This document shows positions 4,726-12,158 of a stretch of DNA of 12,158 nt, piece after piece. The notes under the pieces are model-generated. The model was not told the origin of the DNA and made no database searches. It saw only the letters and a list, made by a program, of their open reading frames with translations. The translations under genes and the position numbers were made by a program. Origin of the DNA: Candidatus Nanopelagicaceae bacterium (GTDB lineage Bacteria; Actinomycetota; Actinomycetes; Nanopelagicales; Nanopelagicaceae); the NCBI GenBank assembly GCA_023262125.1, contig JALRDT010000158.1:1-12158 (forward strand). Reading direction: 5' to 3'. Every line of letters begins with the position of its first letter. The stretch's first letter is position 1.

Positions 4726-5949
4726 ATGTTTCCAACGTTGGCCATAACCTTCCTGGCCTTCTTTCTAAGAATCTTCAACCTATCTACTCCTAAAAGTTTG
4801 GTCTTTGATGAGATTTACTACGTGGATGGTGCTCGAGACTATTTGAAGCATGGCGTTGAGGTAACCAATGGGGCCGCAGAATTCGTAGTACATCCTCCCG
4901 TTGGAAAATGGCTTATTGCCGCTGGAATTAAGTTATTCGGCGATCATGAATTTGGTTGGCGAATCGCAGTTGCCATCGCTGGCACTTTAACTGTTTATTT
5001 GACGGCGCGTATTGCAAAAAGAATTTTCCATGAGAACCATTGGGCCACTCTTGCAGCGCTGTTGATGGCTTTAGATGGTTTGAATTTAGTTATGTCTCGT
5101 ACCGCCTTGCTAGATATATTTTTAACTTTATTTGTTCTGCTCTCTGTTAACTCTTGGCTTAAAGGAAATTATTTGTCCTTTTCGGTTTATTTAGGTCTTG
5201 CCATGGGAAGTAAGTGGAGCGCCTTGTATTTTATTTTTGTTTTCTTATTACTTGAATACATATTAAACAGAAACTTGATTCGGGTAATCCGAATTGGTTT
5301 TACGTCAATTGGAGTTTACATTTTAAGTTGGTTTGGTTGGTTTGCATCTTCACTTGGATGGGATCGCGATGCAAAGTCCAACCCGATATTTTCATTAATT
5401 TATTACCACAAAGAGATGCTTGGTTTTCATACTAGCTTGACTGAAAATCATTCTTATCAAGCAAATCCTTGGAGTTGGATTGTTATGGGAAGACCAACTT
5501 CCTTCTTTTATGAATCACCCAAAGGCTGCGGTACAAAAAGTTGTGCGCAGGAAGTTTTGGCATTAGGTACTCCAATACTTTGGTGGATTGGTGCAATTGC
5601 TCTAATTTTTCTAATCGGAATTAATTTACATAACTTTGCAATGCGTGAAGTTGAGCTCTCGTCTTTGATTCCATTCTTGGGAATTTTGGCGGGTTACACT
5701 CCATGGTTCTTCTTTCAGGAAAGAACTGTATTTACTTTCTATGCAATCGTATTCCAGCCATTTTTAATTCTGGCCATCGTATTATTAGCGAAAATAGCCT
5801 ATGAATACGATGAACGCTTGAAGAATTTAATTCTGGTAACAGTTATTGTTGTAGCGATAAATTTCATTTACTTCTACCCGATATTTACCGGTGTTTTAAC
5901 TTCATACGATGAGTGGTATTCACGTATGTGGTGGAGCTCTTGGATTTAG
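4726..5949 (+). CDS. pmt: polyprenyl-phosphate-mannose--protein mannosyltransferase (GT39, short form)
   Basis: A multi-pass membrane enzyme that moves mannose from polyprenyl-phosphate mannose to Ser/Thr of exported proteins outside the membrane. Visible family marks are the acidic LVFDEIYYVDGARDYL in the first loop, VVHPPVGKWLI, SRTALLDIF, MGSKWSALYF and the late MGRPTSFFYES...GCGTKSCAQEVLALGTP loop. About ten hydrophobic segments are visible. With this ATG it has 407 residues, clearly shorter than the roughly 500 of mycobacterial and corynebacterial Pmt: the N-terminal extension and the loop after the SRTALLDIF helix are reduced. An in-frame GTG at 4696 would add ten residues, but would place the start against the rsmI start codon. 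It is convergent with sepX, and the stop codons overlap by 4 nt. The Pmt-rsmI neighbourhood is conserved in actinobacteria. Confidence 0.92.
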   Translation: MFPTLAITFLAFFLRIFNLSTPKSLVFDEIYYVDGARDYLKHGVEVTNGAAEFVVHPPVGKWLIAAGIKLFGDHEFGWRIAVAIAGTLTVYLTARIAKRIFHENHWATLAALLMALDGLNLVMSRTALLDIFLTLFVLLSVNSWLKGNYLSFSVYLGLAMGSKWSALYFIFVFLLLEYILNRNLIRVIRIGFTSIGVYILSWFGWFASSLGWDRDAKSNPIFSLIYYHKEMLGFHTSLTENHSYQANPWSWIVMGRPTSFFYESPKGCGTKSCAQEVLALGTPILWWIGAIALIFLIGINLHNFAMREVELSSLIPFLGILAGYTPWFFFQERTVFTFYAIVFQPFLILAIVLLAKIAYEYDERLKNLILVTVIVVAINFIYFYPIFTGVLTSYDEWYSRMWWSSWI

Positions 5950-6710
5950 CTATTAACTGCGCGGTCGCGCTTATTAGCTGCCTCTTCTGCTAATTGTTGA
6001 TCAAATACCTCGTCTGCGCTTGGCGCTGCCGCAGCGAGCGCTTCACGTGCCAATCGTTCTTGCTCTTCACTCCATTGACCTGGAGTTGTTAAATCAATGA
6101 TTCGTCTTGGAGTTACCGCTTTAGGTGCATTCACATAAGTTGGAGCTGGAATCGAATTTGGCGTCCAAACATTTCTGGTAGCAGCGCTTCCTTGTGGAAG
6201 CAACACGATTCCTGTTATTTCTCGTTCTGCCAACGGTACCCAAAGTTCAGAATCTTGTTTTGGCGCCACAACCTCGGAGAGATTTACATGTGAGACACCG
6301 TTTGTGGTTCTTTGAAGACCTTCAATACGTCGACGTTGCACTCTTTGACGATTAATTGTTTTGCGAGTGTGTGCCAAATAGATTACAAAACCAGAAACTG
6401 GAATACCAATTGATAACCAACTTAATAGATTCATTGCTGCACCAACACTTGTCGCTAATAGAGAAGAGAAAATAAGAACGAAAATTATTCGACGTCGCAT
6501 CAGGGCTTGTGATTGCTTGAATGGAGCATCGAGATCTGTATGAATTGCAAGTGAGTAAGAACTTTCAGTTTCGCCAGCTACTACACGAAGAGCGCTCTTG
6601 TAACGTTCAACAGATTTTCCGGAAAATTCATCATGAGTATGAATCCAGCGAGGCAAGAAATAGGCGACCCACATTCCGATAATCGCCAAGTAAATAATTG
6701 CTGAAGCCAT
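5946..6710 (-). CDS. sepX: SepX/GlpR-like divisome membrane protein
   Basis: The N-terminus (a helix SAIIYLAIIGMWVAYFLPRW, then HDEFSG and SVERYKSALRVV) matches the actinobacterial SepX/GlpR family. SepX stabilises division in Streptomyces, and GlpR is the membrane receptor of the gephyrin-like protein Glp in Corynebacterium. The 254-residue protein has one N-terminal helix (3-20), a basic stretch RRR before a paired hydrophobic segment (about 74-113), a very basic linker (116-129) and a long hydrophilic tail. The tail contains PRRIIDLTTPGQWSEEQ (201-217), a motif I recall from family tails. The ATG at 6710 is chosen over an in-frame TTG at 6719; no Shine-Dalgarno is visible before either. 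It lies 49 nt downstream of rimJ in the glp-rimJ-sepX order. Assignment rests on N-terminal similarity, topology and context. Confidence 0.82.
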   Translation of the reverse strand: MASAIIYLAIIGMWVAYFLPRWIHTHDEFSGKSVERYKSALRVVAGETESSYSLAIHTDLDAPFKQSQALMRRRIIFVLIFSSLLATSVGAAMNLLSWLSIGIPVSGFVIYLAHTRKTINRQRVQRRRIEGLQRTTNGVSHVNLSEVVAPKQDSELWVPLAEREITGIVLLPQGSAATRNVWTPNSIPAPTYVNAPKAVTPRRIIDLTTPGQWSEEQERLAREALAAAAPSADEVFDQQLAEEAANKRDRAVNS

Positions 6711-6759
6711 GATGGCCAAAGATTAGTGTTTGAAATGTCCGATTTCGGGTATTTACACC

Positions 6760-7317
6760 CTACTTGATAGCAATATTTTCGCGAACGAAACAGTGGTGGT
6801 CTCTCCAGGCACCATCAATGTGTAAATAGCGGGGGCGCAAACCTTCATAAAGATAACCGCATTTTTCGGCAACTCTAATAGATGGTGAATTTTCGGGCCG
6901 AATATTAATTTCGATACGGTGCAATTCAAGTTCACTAAATGCAAAATCTGTCACCATGTTTACTGCTCTGCTCATGTAGCCACGATTAGCGTAATTACGA
7001 TCGATCCAATAGCCGATATGAGCGCCTCTAAGCGCCCCGTAAATGACCCCACCAAGATTTATCTGGCCAATCAAATTTGGCCCAATGAAAATCCCGAATG
7101 AGAAGGAGCGGCCAGCTCTCTCCTCTTTTCTATACGCCCTTACCATTTTATTGAAGCTAAGTGCGCTCTTTAATTCATCACTCTTTGAAGTACGTGGAAC
7201 TGTTGCTTCCCACTCTTCGAGCCACTCCCGATTCATTGCCCGGACTCTTCGCCATTGCTTTTTATCAGAGCTAGTGAACGGCCTTAGAAGAATCTCGCCA
7301 TCTGTAAGTTCAATCAT
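6760..7317 (-). CDS. rimJ: GNAT acetyltransferase of the RimJ/RimL type, in the glp-sepX module
   Basis: A GNAT-fold acetyl-CoA-dependent N-acetyltransferase; the family namesakes acetylate ribosomal proteins S5 and L12, but the substrate of this actinobacterial branch is unknown to me. Visible features: LRPFTSSDKKQWRRVRAMNR at the N-terminus (11-30), LIGQINLGGV (82-91), HIGYWIDRNYANRGYMSRAV, which carries the acetyl-CoA loop (100-119), and HRIEINIRPENSPSIRVAEK (133-152). The C-terminus RPRYLHIDGAWRDH (161-174) is highly characteristic. Length (185 aa) is normal. Its ATG overlaps the glp stop in an ATGA arrangement, so translation is coupled to glp. Position between glp and sepX is conserved in actinobacteria, which hints at a link to cell division, but that is inference. 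Confidence 0.92.
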   Translation of the reverse strand: MIELTDGEILLRPFTSSDKKQWRRVRAMNREWLEEWEATVPRTSKSDELKSALSFNKMVRAYRKEERAGRSFSFGIFIGPNLIGQINLGGVIYGALRGAHIGYWIDRNYANRGYMSRAVNMVTDFAFSELELHRIEINIRPENSPSIRVAEKCGYLYEGLRPRYLHIDGAWRDHHCFVRENIAIK

Positions 7318-8219
7318 TTTATTCTTGGCAAAATCACGGTGGTTAAAGTTTCTCCTGCTTTGAGTGCATCCCCAGGATTTACCGATACCAACGAGTTGGC
7401 CGCTGCCAAACTTACAAAATCTTCCTGTTCGGTAAATATTGAAACAGACGCGTTGTCATCACTCAAGTTTCCAAGAAGATATCGCCGGCCAGAAATTTCT
7501 CCTACAAAATCTCTTTCGAGCTTTGCTTTAACTGAAGGGCAAAAAACCTCTTTGGCGCCAATCATGGTTCTGATCATGGGACGGACGAATAATTGCATAG
7601 CGATATAAGCGGATATTGGATCTCCTGGCAAAGTTACAACTGGAGTCTTATCAGGACCAATGGTTCCAAAATTAAATCGACCGGTATTTTCTAATTCAAG
7701 ATCTACAACTTTAACTTCACCTAGTTGATTTAGAGACTTTGTGATTAGATCAAAAGAATCATCATTTCGTTCACCACTTACCACAATTAAATCTGCGCGA
7801 ACCAATTGATCTTCAACAATATCTTTTAATTCTTCTTCGTTATCCGGAATTGAATGCACTCTAAAAGCGACTCCACCAATTTCTCTAACGATTGTGGTCA
7901 GCTGCCAAGAGTTAGTTTCATACTCTTCGCTGCCGGTTATTGGATTACCAGGTTCTATTAAATCCGGACCAGCGGAAATAATTACCACTCGTGGGTGAGG
8001 TCTGGTTGGAAGATGACCTCGGCCAATCGAAGCTGCTAGACCAATGGTGGTCGATCGAATTGGTGAACCGCTTTTTAACACCAAACGTTCGCCGGCGAAG
8101 ATATCTTCAGACAAGGTTGCGCCATGAGCGTCTAGCAGAGGCAAATCAAGTGGCGCTAAAGGTTCGACAATAGAAAGCAGCGCGGTCAGGAACTCATCTA
8201 CACGCATTCGTTCTAGCAT
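7314..8219 (-). CDS. glp: gephyrin-like MoeA-family protein (Glp) lacking domain II and the active-site motifs
   Basis: Most similar in plan to MoeA/gephyrin-like Glp, which in Corynebacterium binds FtsZ and the membrane receptor GlpR; ordinary MoeA inserts molybdate into molybdopterin. The N-terminus (VDEFLTALLSIVEPLAPLDLP, LLDAHGATLSEDI) is standard. EDIFAGERLVLKSGSPI (38-54) then jumps directly to the sequence that normally follows domain II, so the ~100-residue lid domain with PPFDNSAMDGYA is cleanly absent. Domain III remains (about 72-225), but its key loops differ: SAGPDL (82-87) for STGDEL, SGERNDDSFD (148-157) for SGGVSMGxYD, LENTGRFNFG (176-185) for MQPGKPQGFG and LPGDPISAY (197-205) for LPGNPVSSY. 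A domain IV-like end follows (226-301). Length is 301 aa against the usual ~400. The start has AAGGTGGG (8223-8230). It heads glp-rimJ-sepX. Confidence 0.85.
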   Translation of the reverse strand: MLERMRVDEFLTALLSIVEPLAPLDLPLLDAHGATLSEDIFAGERLVLKSGSPIRSTTIGLAASIGRGHLPTRPHPRVVIISAGPDLIEPGNPITGSEEYETNSWQLTTIVREIGGVAFRVHSIPDNEEELKDIVEDQLVRADLIVVSGERNDDSFDLITKSLNQLGEVKVVDLELENTGRFNFGTIGPDKTPVVTLPGDPISAYIAMQLFVRPMIRTMIGAKEVFCPSVKAKLERDFVGEISGRRYLLGNLSDDNASVSIFTEQEDFVSLAAANSLVSVNPGDALKAGETLTTVILPRIK

Positions 8220-8242: not shown

Positions 8243-8286
8243 CTGCATAGTTCATGAGAAATGCTGATAGGGCCAGAAAGGAAATG

Positions 8287-8817
8287 ATGGCAATAAGAGA
8301 TAAAGCATCGCTCCGTGAAGAATTCCGCAAGTTGCGTAGTGAGCATCCAGCACATAGTGACTATTTGTACTTATTAGATATTCCAGAAATTATTAATGCA
8401 AAAGTAATTACGAGTTATTACCCATTACCTGGGGAGCCAAGTTTGATTACCTTAAATAAGGCACTCATCGAAGCAGGAAAAACTGTTTTGCTTCCTAGAA
8501 TTGTAAATAAGAAAATGGAATTTGTGCATGTTCAAGGTTCCCAAGATGATTTAATTCAAAAAGGTAAGTTTCACGAACCAGTTGGAAATATATTTATCGG
8601 TGAAATTCAAGTCTGTTTAATTCCAGCTACCGCAATTGATCAAAGTGGGGTCCGTTTAGGGCAAGGCGGCGGTTATTACGATCAATTTTTGACTGGAACT
8701 GCAGCTTTTAGAATTGGGATTATTCACGACCGCGAATTTGTTAAAAAACTTCCAAGCGAATGGTTCGATCAAAAAGTAGAAGCTATCGCAACTGAATCAG
8801 GATTTCGCCGAATCTGA
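8287..8817 (+). CDS. 5-formyltetrahydrofolate cyclo-ligase
   Basis: This enzyme (5-FCL, MTHFS) uses ATP to turn 5-formyltetrahydrofolate into 5,10-methenyltetrahydrofolate, returning the stored folate to one-carbon metabolism in the cytoplasm. Family marks are the N-terminal KASLREEFRKLR, TSYYPLPGEPSLITL, LLPRI, LIPATAIDQSGVRLGQGGGYYDQFL (substrate/ATP loop GGGYYD), then GIIHDREFV. With the ATG at 8287 the protein has 176 aa. This start is preferred because AAAGGA (8277-8282) lies 4 nt before it; ATG 8284 is too close, and ATG 8254 has no ribosome-binding site and leaves only 34 nt to the divergent glp start. The 3' end overlaps the convergent eamA gene by 21 nt. In mycobacteria the neighbouring genes are galU/glp on one side and Ruc on the other. 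Confidence 0.93.
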   Translation: MAIRDKASLREEFRKLRSEHPAHSDYLYLLDIPEIINAKVITSYYPLPGEPSLITLNKALIEAGKTVLLPRIVNKKMEFVHVQGSQDDLIQKGKFHEPVGNIFIGEIQVCLIPATAIDQSGVRLGQGGGYYDQFLTGTAAFRIGIIHDREFVKKLPSEWFDQKVEAIATESGFRRI

Positions 8818-9680: not shown

Positions 9681-11504
9681 TTAATTATTTTTACTCTCTT
9701 TACGTGCGAGTTCTGCCAAGAATTGGTTGTACTTCGCCAAATCATCACTTTCGCCCATTGCGCTTGCTCTTGCAGTTTTACGATCAATTCTTTCAGTCTC
9801 TTTTTTATCTTCTCGCATCCATTGAATGAATGCTGCAGTCAATGCAATCAATATTGGTATTTCACCCATTGCCCAGCCAATCGCACCACCAGCGTATTGA
9901 TTTTCAAGCAAATCTAAATTAAGTGGATTTCCTATTGAAGTGTAATAACCACCATCCATCAAAGTTGTAGCTGACATAAGTGCTATTGAGAAGAATGCAT
10001 GAATACTCATTGCAGCAAAGAGAATAACTATTCTTACTACATTTGGCGGTCGATTTGGATTTGGATCTACGCCCACAATTACATGGAAAAAAAGAGCTCC
10101 TGCAAGCAGAAAATGTAAATTCATAAACAGGTGGCCAAGATGACTTCCCATCAAAGTTCCAAATAGTCCAGTGAAATAAAGTGCAAAAAGCGAACCGTCG
10201 AAAATCAAAAGCGCGACAACTGGATTGGTCATAAATTTTGCATATCTAGAGTGCAGAAAGCGAATCAGAATATTTCTGGGACCTTCTTCTTCGTTATCTC
10301 TTCCTGCAGGCAAAGTTCTTAATGCCAATGTGATTGGAGCTCCAAGTACAAGTGCAATTGGTGCAATCATTCCTAAAATCATATGTTCAATCATGTGGTA
10401 CGAGAAACCAAAGTGGGAGTAAACGCCAATTGCACCATTAACCGCATAATTGACGATCAAAATACCGATCATAAAGGAGACTGTTCTGCCGATAGGCCAT
10501 CTATCTCCTCGATTATTCAATATTCGAACACCTTTAAAATAAAGAAGTGAGGCGATAATTAAAAGAGCAAGAGTCAAAGCATCAGGTTGATATTCGAAAA
10601 TCCAAGTATTTAAAGTTGGAGAACCTGGAAAACTCAAACCTACTTGCTCTTCCAGTGGGTTTATAACTCCCGCTCTTACTGGGGGATTACTTTGACTTAA
10701 AAGAGTTCCCATAAACATTGTCATTAACATGACGACTGACTCTAAAATTATTTGGAAATTAATTTTCTCAGCTAACATTTTTCTAACTTTGGCTGCTAAT
10801 CCCAGAATAATAAAAGTCCAAATCAATTTTATCGAAAGTAGAACGGCATAGCTACTTTTCCATGAGCCTGAGAAGTTCAGTCTGATCCATGCATTTACAG
10901 CACCGCTTACTACAACCGTAAATGCAGCCCAATAAGCCAATCGGCTAAATCTAGTTAACGCCAATTTCTTATCTAATTCAGGGCTAATGACAATAACAAT
11001 TAATCCACCAACCCACATTGTTATGGCTACCACATGTACTAATAAAGTTCCGATAGCCATGAGATGGGAACCACCCGATGCAGAGTGACTCTGAAAAATA
11101 GGAGAAGAGACCGATATCAATGAAAGTAATAACACCAGAGCAACCTGAGTAATTCTCTCGCAACTTCTAATCCATGCCGCAACTACTGCCGCACCCACCA
11201 TTTGGATGGCTAAAAATTTACCTAAACTAATCTGTGTTACAAAAGAGCGAAGAGATGTGAATTCTAGAGCATCTATTAATGATACCTCTAATATCGAAGC
11301 TAAAGTCGCCACGATAAAAACTGCTGTCGCAGCTGACCAAACCCCAGCTGCTAGTCCCGCTTTTGCAATAAGTGTTTTATGTTCTTCACGAATTTTTCCG
11401 TGAAGATTTTTTGCAAAAAATACTATCGCCAATAAAAAGCCGATTGTTAGCGTAGCACTGAGCAAGTAAATGAATTTACTCAGCGTTAAAATTATTTCTA
11501 CCAA
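9681..11504 (-). CDS. CopD / cytochrome c oxidase assembly (CtaG) fusion membrane protein
   Basis: A 607-residue fusion known from actinobacteria. The first half (about 1-275) is CopD-like: eight or so helices with His140, His147 and His157 around SHSASGGSHLMAIGTLLVHV and the VGGL turn (165-168), as in copper-uptake proteins. The second half (about 300-565) is CtaG/Caa3-assembly-like: VYSHFGFSYHMIEHMILGMI (361-380), APIALVLGAPITLALR, LGHLFMNLHFLLAG (456-469), VDPNPNRPP, IHAFFSIALM, DGGYY and GGAIGWAMGEIPILI. CtaG proteins help bring copper to cytochrome oxidase. A charged cytoplasmic tail follows. The start is a TTG one base after the copC stop, with only a weak GAG upstream; no ATG exists before the first helix, so the start rests on coupling and topology. 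No oxidase subunit gene is in view. Confidence 0.9.
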   Translation of the reverse strand: MVEIILTLSKFIYLLSATLTIGFLLAIVFFAKNLHGKIREEHKTLIAKAGLAAGVWSAATAVFIVATLASILEVSLIDALEFTSLRSFVTQISLGKFLAIQMVGAAVVAAWIRSCERITQVALVLLLSLISVSSPIFQSHSASGGSHLMAIGTLLVHVVAITMWVGGLIVIVISPELDKKLALTRFSRLAYWAAFTVVVSGAVNAWIRLNFSGSWKSSYAVLLSIKLIWTFIILGLAAKVRKMLAEKINFQIILESVVMLMTMFMGTLLSQSNPPVRAGVINPLEEQVGLSFPGSPTLNTWIFEYQPDALTLALLIIASLLYFKGVRILNNRGDRWPIGRTVSFMIGILIVNYAVNGAIGVYSHFGFSYHMIEHMILGMIAPIALVLGAPITLALRTLPAGRDNEEEGPRNILIRFLHSRYAKFMTNPVVALLIFDGSLFALYFTGLFGTLMGSHLGHLFMNLHFLLAGALFFHVIVGVDPNPNRPPNVVRIVILFAAMSIHAFFSIALMSATTLMDGGYYTSIGNPLNLDLLENQYAGGAIGWAMGEIPILIALTAAFIQWMREDKKETERIDRKTARASAMGESDDLAKYNQFLAELARKESKNN

Positions 11505-11505
11505 T

Positions 11506-12024
11506 TTAACGCTCGTTATATAGCTTTCTTCCGTATAAAACCAAACCTATTGCAACTGCTAAACCGGCTACTCCGACTAACAAAACAAATATTGTTGTGC
11601 CAAACGAGCTCGAGTTTTGCACTTCAGGGTCTTTTGTTGCTGTTGGCTTAGGAGTTGTAATTTTATCGGGTGCATTGAAAGTGAATGTATAAATTCCAGT
11701 TAATGGAATATCTTCTTCTGAAATTAAAGAGTACTCGACTTGATAAATACCTTTTTCGGTAAGTGCAAGCAAGCCAACGACTGCATTAGTGCCATCTACT
11801 AAAAGTGCGCCATCATCTACTCTGTTGCCTTTTGGGTCCGTCACAATTATTTCGCTACCCATTGGAGCAAGTGGCGTATCTGTCGTTAATGAAACAGAAG
11901 TTGGCGCAATCGAAAGTATTGATCCACTTACCGGTGAAGTGCCAGTCAATAAATTAGCGAAGGCAGGTGTGATGGTTGCCATGCTAACCAAAAGTGCCGC
12001 GAAGAGTGCTCGGAAAGATCGCAT
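11506..12024 (-). CDS. CopC-like exported, membrane-anchored protein without histidines
   Basis: A 172-residue protein: signal peptide (1-23, MRSFRALFAALLV...AFA), a CopC-like beta domain (about 24-117) opening LLTGTSPVSGSILSIAP and closing LTGIYTFTF, a Pro/Thr/Lys linker and a C-terminal anchor helix (about 141-165). CopC carries copper in the periplasm or outside the membrane, usually for CopD. The classical Cu(II) ligands are gone: the mature N-terminal His is Asn, and the usual SADGHPVSG reads SEEDIPLTG (102-110). No His or Cys occurs in the predicted mature protein, and only one Met (55). The start at 12024 is chosen over 12138 because it gives a clean signal peptide and has AAAGGGAG (12028-12035) 3 nt upstream. 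One base separates it from copD/ctaG. Confidence 0.85.
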   Translation of the reverse strand: MRSFRALFAALLVSMATITPAFANLLTGTSPVSGSILSIAPTSVSLTTDTPLAPMGSEIIVTDPKGNRVDDGALLVDGTNAVVGLLALTEKGIYQVEYSLISEEDIPLTGIYTFTFNAPDKITTPKPTATKDPEVQNSSSFGTTIFVLLVGVAGLAVAIGLVLYGRKLYNER

Positions 12025-12123
12025 AAACTCCCTTTCAATTCGCGGTAATACTCTCACTTCTCTACACTTTACTTCTAGTAGCAAGCTAGCGTTTTTGAGA
12101 ACTATTACTGCGGGAGCGTGGAA
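12025..12123. promoter_or_regulatory. divergent spacer between copC and the FmdB-like gene
   Basis: These 99 bases are the largest gene-free interval in the window and must hold the start signals of both divergent genes. Shine-Dalgarno sequences are clear on both sides: AAAGGGAG (12028-12035, minus) and GGGAG (12112-12116, plus). TAnnnT-like hexamers are TAAAGT (12066-12071, minus strand) and TAGCGT (12087-12092, plus strand), but neither has a convincing -35. No operator-like repeat stood out beyond the short palindrome GCTAGC (12085-12090). Confidence 0.4.
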
Positions 12124-12158
12124 ATGCCAACGTACCAATACGAGTGCACCTCGTGTGG
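12124..12158 (+). CDS. FmdB/Ruc-family zinc-ribbon protein, 5' fragment
   Basis: Only the first 12 residues are in the window: MPTYQYECTSCG. This is the hallmark start of the FmdB-type zinc ribbon, with the first CxxC of the zinc knuckle. GGGAG lies 7 nt before the ATG. Next to a 5-FCL gene, the actinobacterial counterpart is Rv0991c (Ruc), a small redox-regulated chaperone with a zinc ribbon and a disordered tail. The Ruc identity rests on gene order alone and cannot be tested here because the rest of the gene lies outside. Confidence 0.75.
   Translation, partial: MPTYQYECTSC

Follow-up and report, generated by a model that had tools for sequence, protein, structure and literature searches.

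The glp locus

The stretch of DNA analysed here, referred to as the window, comprises 12,158 nucleotides of contig JALRDT010000158.1 from a Candidatus Nanopelagicaceae bacterium. Its reverse strand carries an intact open reading frame, with an ATG start, 301 codons for amino acids and 0 internal stops, that encodes a Glp protein devoid of domain II (the lid), together with genes for a GNAT acetyltransferase and for SepX/GlpR (Table 1). The SepX/GlpR protein of the window scores below the cut-off of all four NCBIfam SepX/GlpR models that it matched, so automatic annotation may overlook its gene. At the far end of the window (9681-12138), a CopC-domain gene (11506-12138) is followed by a gene whose product has CopD and CtaG domains (9681-11504), forming what their domain content identifies as a putative copper-handling or oxidase-assembly pair.

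Table 1. Features of the glp locus in the window. Coordinates of the junction, hinge 2, loop and hairpin were computed from residue numbers.
Feature	Position	Strand	Description
Lid-less glp	7314..8219	-	301-aa Glp orthologue; domains I, III and IV; no domain II
Junction of the missing lid	8091..8096	-	Codons of A42 and G43; full-length relatives have about 100 more residues here (alignment)
Hinge 2, proline-rich, RPHPRV, residues 73-78	7986..8003	-	PxPR pattern
Rewritten molybdopterin-binding loop SGERNDDSFDLI, residues 148-159	7743..7778	-	Alignment
Shortened hairpin LSDDNASV, residues 252-259	7443..7466	-	Corresponds to the hairpin by which C. glutamicum Glp binds FtsZ
GNAT acetyltransferase	6760..7317	-	Between glp and glpR; 4-base overlap with the end of glp
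SepX/GlpR	5946..6719	-	Membrane partner of Glp; TTG start (ORF list); NF050099 99.9 bits, cut-off 150
5-formyltetrahydrofolate cyclo-ligase	8254..8817	+	Divergent from glp; domain match

A MoeA/gephyrin fold without its lid

In a 61-row alignment, the window protein presents 0 residues in the columns of the lid, where three full-length Glps of its family have 98-103. The missing domain II, of approximately 100 residues, is absent in frame: the sequence passes directly across the junction (EDIFA/GERLVL), with flanking blocks at a predicted pLDDT of 95, and the MoeA lid domain with its DNSAMDG motif is absent from the protein. The alignment also reveals substitutions in conserved loops, with SGERNDDSFD in the place of the canonical SGGVSxGxYD and LPGDPISAY in that of LPGNPVSAY. 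The top NCBIfam match of the window protein is Glp_gephyrin, with 215.7 bits and a best stretch at model positions 138-403, and Glp is likewise the best NCBIfam model for four other lid-less proteins. This score falls short of the 475-bit equivalog cut-off of NF045515, which two full-length Glps of the same family clear with 508.6 and 543.1 bits. Among Pfam domains, MoCF_biosynth was detected above its cut-off and MoeA_N just as a sub-threshold fragment spanning residues 6-44.

The AlphaFold2 model of the window protein (pLDDT 91.3) presents the remaining MoeA/gephyrin fold with confidence and contains no lid. In superpositions, 283-298 of the 301 residues align to the listed entries for Cnx1E, the gephyrin crystal structure and E. 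coli MoeA, and the monomer model lies closer to the closed MoeA/gephyrin form (rmsd 2.0-2.6) than to the open form of Corynebacterium glutamicum Glp (rmsd 3.3-3.5). The original prediction, made on the sequence of the window, had proposed that domain II was lost in frame without a stop or frameshift and that the molybdopterin- and molybdate-binding loops had been rewritten, and it had named structure prediction and superposition as a check; the alignment and the lid-free model bear out both proposals. The architecture also departs from that of MoaB-type proteins with a single MoCF domain, as the match to MoaB is confined to model residues 50-226 and the window protein adds domains I and IV. 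MogA and CinA are further proteins of the single-MoCF-domain type.

Orthology with Glp and linkage to GlpR

In a tree of 61 proteins from which the lid columns were excluded, the 54 Glp rows separate from the 7 MoeA rows at 100/100, and the window protein branches within the Glp clade, away from the MoeA enzymes. The PxPR pattern of hinge 2 was found in all 31 lid-less Glps, in 21 of 23 full-length Glps and in 0 of 26 MoeA enzymes, and proline-rich hinge regions have been described as a feature of Glp (PMC10522489). The window protein is hence set apart from MoeA molybdotransferases (E. coli MoeA, PDB 1g8l; actinobacterial MoeA, NF050098) by this hinge as well as by its missing lid, its rewritten catalytic loops and the absence of an adjacent moaC.

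Thirty genomes were searched with a GlpR model. In all 21 lid-less genomes among them (15 from the family of the window, three from f39, one from f5 and two from f38), a GlpR gene lies close downstream of glp, on the same contig and strand. Family and genus codes here are those of this analysis, with f1, the family of the window, inferred to be the Nanopelagicaceae from the NCBI names of close homologues. All 21 GlpR scores are below the NCBI curated cut-off, which only two of the 30 genomes reach, and it is therefore position, rather than score, that carries the GlpR argument; in 14 control genomes, the same model matched in C. glutamicum only. The window protein lacks the four-domain plan and the corynebacterial FtsZ loop and scores below the NCBI cut-off for Glp, and it shares ancestry, hinge 2 and GlpR linkage with this group. 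It is thus a Glp orthologue, and more precisely a lid-less derivative of Glp.

Distribution and repeated loss of the lid

The 120 nearest homologues of the window protein, among 4260 found, are all 291-305 residues long, and Candidatus Nanopelagicaceae appears in the NCBI names of three of those listed. Some Glp matches as short as the lid-less form (L169, L173, L181) came from public MAGs whose records name Streptomyces griseus or Bifidobacterium breve, labels that look wrong. In a sample of 151 genomes from the order of the window, 149 presented a match, one of them (G099) apparently through a MoeA enzyme alone. Reading the lid state from the listed matches, in which lid-less forms start no later than query residue 9 and span at most 915 bases, 144 of 148 Glps were found to be lid-less and four to be full-length, the latter from genera g9 and g16 with frames of 404-409 residues.

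In a class-wide sample of 296 genomes, 275 of which presented a match, a single lid-less form outside the order was seen among the matches listed, in G279. Closer sampling and the search of the 30 chosen genomes returned further lid-less forms outside the order. In f39, genus g93 is lid-less (10 genomes with a whole frame) and its sister genus g94 (two genomes) is full-length. In f5, the one g71 genome, which is 70% complete, is lid-less, and all five g20 genomes retain the lid, with one frame cut by a contig end. In f38, both g123 genomes are lid-less and the 14 other matching genomes are full-length by frame. A paralogous origin was considered for the lid-less copy of f38 and dropped, as it is this copy that adjoins GlpR, while the full-length copy lies elsewhere with moaC. 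The two genomes concerned (G438 and G392; L131 and L132 versus L140 and L141), at 3.5-3.7 Mb, are larger than the other lid-less genomes.

On the best tree, the lid state changes four times. A single lid-less clade is rejected by the AU test (p = 1.1e-5), as are clades uniting f1 with f39 (p = 3.5e-4), f39 with f5 (p = 1.0e-4) and f5 with f38 (p = 0.0095), and a clade uniting f39 with f38 is not rejected (p = 0.235); these tests are weakened by the groups having been named after inspection of the tree. Three losses of the lid are well supported and a fourth is likely.

The FtsZ contact surface

In C. glutamicum, the centre of the Glp dimer binds the C-terminal tail of FtsZ, with an affinity reported as micromolar, and GlpR, a membrane protein (PMC10522489). 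The original prediction held that the domain III/IV body contacting FtsZ was intact in the window protein. This is correct for the fold but not for the contact hairpin, which numbers 7 residues in the window versus 11 between positions 360 and 370 of C. glutamicum Glp, with S for M361, D for R362 and A where Y369 would stand. The methionine is not a general feature of Glp, since no other Glp presents it among the 47 of 54 Glp rows listed. In a count without gaps over all 54 Glp rows, 15 of the 23 full-length Glps and three of the 31 lid-less ones have an aromatic residue where Y369 would stand; it is missing from all 23 lid-less proteins of the window's family and all five of f39, and kept in all three of f5 and f38. 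The shortened hairpin, together with the absence of the aromatic residue in 28 of 31 lid-less Glps, indicates that FtsZ binding may differ in these proteins or be gone.

The C-terminal tail of FtsZ is kept, with small variations, in all 29 FtsZs (L226-L254) found in the 30 genomes, one of which returned no FtsZ match. Of the lid-less genomes of the window's family, 14 gave an FtsZ match, and in 12 of these the tail reads I-D-[VI]-P-D-F-M; the FtsZ of the nearest genome ends in EIDVPDFMK. The form L-D-[VI]-P-D-F-L is that of the two others and predominates among the rest of the genomes. The full-length genera of this family and the lid-less genera g6 and g14 have a tail resembling LDVPDFLK, a contrast that may reflect co-variation with the Glp hairpin.

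These data bear on a credible, if tentative, alternative in which lid-less Glp still serves GlpR/SepX and no longer FtsZ, either with GlpR as its only partner or by linking it to something else. Besides the trimmed hairpin, the loss of the aromatic residue in most lid-less Glps (compared to eight of 23 full-length ones) and the constant presence of GlpR beside glp, such a role would fit the likeness of the model to the closed form, where the FtsZ groove described for C. glutamicum Glp is not open (PMC10522489). Against it, FtsZ retains its C-terminal peptide, the absence of the aromatic residue from eight full-length Glps suggests that the contacts seen in C. glutamicum may not hold for all Glps, and deletion of the same loop has been reported to abolish GlpR binding too (PMC10522489). 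GlpR binding appears to be the safer half of the proposed function, being better supported than FtsZ binding.

Molybdenum cofactor synthesis and linkage to moaC

Of the 151 genomes sampled from the order of the window, 55 gave a match to moaA (PF06463) and 53 to MoeA_N, these being nearly the same genomes; the corresponding figures for the 104 good-quality genomes are 38 and 37. The 144 lid-less genomes divide into 47 with moaA and a separate MoeA, two with moaA only, one with MoeA only and 94 with neither, 14 of the last being single-contig genomes. The presence of lid-less Glp in 94 genomes where neither moaA nor a MoeA lid domain was detected makes Moco synthesis an unlikely role for this protein. 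The nearest genome compared (G001) has moaA and a separate MoeA. In f39, nine of 12 g93 genomes combine moaA with two separate MoeA_N proteins and three have neither, with lid-less Glp whole in 10 of these 12; neither moaA nor a separate MoeA_N was found in the f5/g71 genome (G230), and each of the two f38/g123 genomes carries moaA plus a single full-length copy at another locus.

The four full-length Glps of the order, from the sister genera g9 and g16, show the reverse. Their genomes (G112, G036, G061 and G136) contain moaA and have Glp as their sole MoeA_N protein, with canonical lid and loops (L031-L034) and with moaC directly downstream of glp in all four, and E. coli MoeA aligns with one of them (L031) at 239 bits. 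These sequence features suggest that the g9/g16 Glps are probably bifunctional, acting as both enzyme and scaffold. Among moaA-bearing genomes, the presence of a separate MoeA is associated with lid state (Fisher's exact test, p = 5e-5), the four full-length genomes being close relatives.

Lid, motifs and moaC were scored for all 54 Glp rows of the tree, leaving out the 7 MoeA rows and using a motif test slightly looser than that of the wider set described below. Fifteen Glps combine the lid, the catalytic motifs and an adjacent moaC, eight have only the lid and 31 have none of the three, and no other combination occurs. Motifs and moaC go together in four independent pairs, a number too small for significance (sign test, p = 0.125). 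The wider set comprised 208 distinct proteins, with 15 fragments and then 26 MoeA enzymes (L035-L060) set aside. In it, moaC adjoins none of the 113 lid-less proteins with enough flanking sequence, three more having a short flank. The exceptions are nine f38 proteins that keep moaC yet fail the motif test, three of them with a changed lid motif among those listed, and one motif-complete protein without moaC. Eight full-length Glps whose catalytic motifs have decayed and which lack an adjacent moaC (L100, L120, L121, L124, L126, L127, L128 and L139) are candidate intermediates before lid loss.

It is improbable that lid-less Glp is still an enzyme, that is, a protein of MoCF fold binding a nucleotide or pterin in a reduced or changed reaction. 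The MoCF domain does exceed its Pfam cut-off and the fold of domain III is intact, but half of the substrate site, as stated for gephyrin (PMC12441120), lies in the missing domain, the loops have been rewritten and 94 of 144 lid-less genomes yielded no moaA and no MoeA_N.

Selective constraint and integrity of the gene

The comparison of the window gene with its nearest relative (G001) yielded a dN/dS of 0.030 at a dS of 0.60, and that of the f38 lid-less pair a dN/dS of 0.073 at a dS of 0.44. Three more lid-less pairs gave values of 0.042, 0.036 and 0.085 with dS near saturation (1.7-3.9), and in one further pair dS was fully saturated. Lid-less glp is under strong purifying constraint. In one genome (G142, L097), glp is interrupted into two frames of 218 and 125 residues, by a frameshift or an assembly error.

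That the gene might be a decaying paralogue or pseudogene, as its missing catalytic motifs, the separate MoeA and moaA of G001 and the split gene of G142 could suggest, is very improbable. The pseudogene reading was rejected on dN/dS values of 0.03-0.09, on the fixation of the lid-less form in 144 of 148 Glps and on its conserved synteny with GlpR, and glp persists in genomes without any other MoeA_N protein. A second copy with canonical loops, which the original prediction had named as the mark of a decaying paralogue, is not what the separate MoeA_N of 48 of 144 lid-less genomes represents, this being a distinct and deeply separate enzyme; nor does its other caveat, an assembly deletion betrayed by full-length relatives, apply with just four full-length Glps among 148. 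An assembly or gene-calling artefact, conceivable because many source genomes are metagenome-assembled, was rejected and has a negligible probability: no stop interrupts the frame across the junction, and the lid-less form is present in seventeen single-contig genomes of 99-100% estimated completeness and in CP015605.1 (strain IMCC19121), a record titled complete genome, seen among the best 80 of 575 loci and possibly one of the seventeen.

A proposed lid-less adaptor and its origin

The explanation that we regard as probable is that the window encodes the Glp of a streamlined freshwater actinobacterium of Nanopelagicaceae type, cut down to domains I, III and IV and acting as a catalytically dead adaptor. 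Such a protein would form a homodimer that holds the membrane protein GlpR/SepX and may link it to the Z-ring; it could not form the lid-to-lid filaments known from gephyrin, and would need none. The original prediction of a minimal Glp reduced to a pure cell-division scaffold is thus sustained in part. The part of it that is supported is a domain II-less Glp, fixed across a large clade, under purifying selection, located beside GlpR, present in genomes without detectable Moco synthesis and recurrent in other lineages; binding of FtsZ in the known mode is doubtful, given the trimmed hairpin, the lost aromatic residue and a model nearer to the closed form. The designation as a pure cell-division scaffold is one that we infer from these lines of evidence.

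The published C. glutamicum Glp (Cgl0883, PDB 8bve/8bvf) has a domain II, at residues 46-145 (PMC10522489), and the window Glp differs from it in the absence of this domain, in its shorter FtsZ-binding hairpin without the aromatic residue and in its closed-like monomer model. The closest tested equivalent found is the gephyrin E-domain in its engineered variant, which has the same domain plan minus the same domain. Gephyrin without subdomain II is reported to keep dimerisation and receptor affinity and to lose filaments, phase separation and synaptic clusters (PMC12441120). By analogy, lid-less Glp would most simply be read as a dimer that bridges GlpR and the Z-ring and needs no lid-to-lid polymer. 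Unlike that variant, lid-less Glp is natural and fixed, has no fused G-domain and has a bacterial membrane protein as its predicted partner, rather than a neurotransmitter receptor.

As to its origin, ancestral Glp may have been both enzyme and scaffold, encoded beside moaC. In lineages that lost Moco synthesis, or in which another MoeA took over, moaC would then leave the locus, the catalytic loops decay and the lid be excised last. This order of steps is deduced from present-day gene and motif combinations and shows most clearly in f5 and f39, which include sister genera whose Glps have decayed motifs and still a lid. On balance, we favour a course, taken repeatedly in Actinobacteria and in one direction only, from a protein that was both MoeA enzyme and division scaffold, a state apparently still present in g9 and g16, to a bare lid-less scaffold. 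Its product would be a natural counterpart of gephyrin minus subdomain II, and lid filaments, which synapses require, would be dispensable for the Glp-GlpR system.

No description of a natural lid-less MoeA or Glp was found in the open-licence PubMed Central literature. In a published study (PMC11733289), only matches with all three Pfam domains were retained, a filter that would exclude lid-less Glps. This, together with scores under the NCBI Glp cut-off, suggests how the lid-less form was overlooked. The lid-less form qualifies the published generalisation that all MoeA proteins resemble one another in their four domains. Another, that of the lost enzymatic role of Glp, is qualified by the two genera in which Glp appears to serve as the sole MoeA. 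The persistence of Glp in genomes without detectable Moco synthesis strengthens the claim that this protein has been repurposed and is not moonlighting. With 301 residues, the window protein is a handy target for a minimal Glp-GlpR-FtsZ structure. If the proposed reading is true, the lid-less Glps constitute a natural deletion experiment on what the partner of Glp needs, in which three domains suffice and the lid is not needed.
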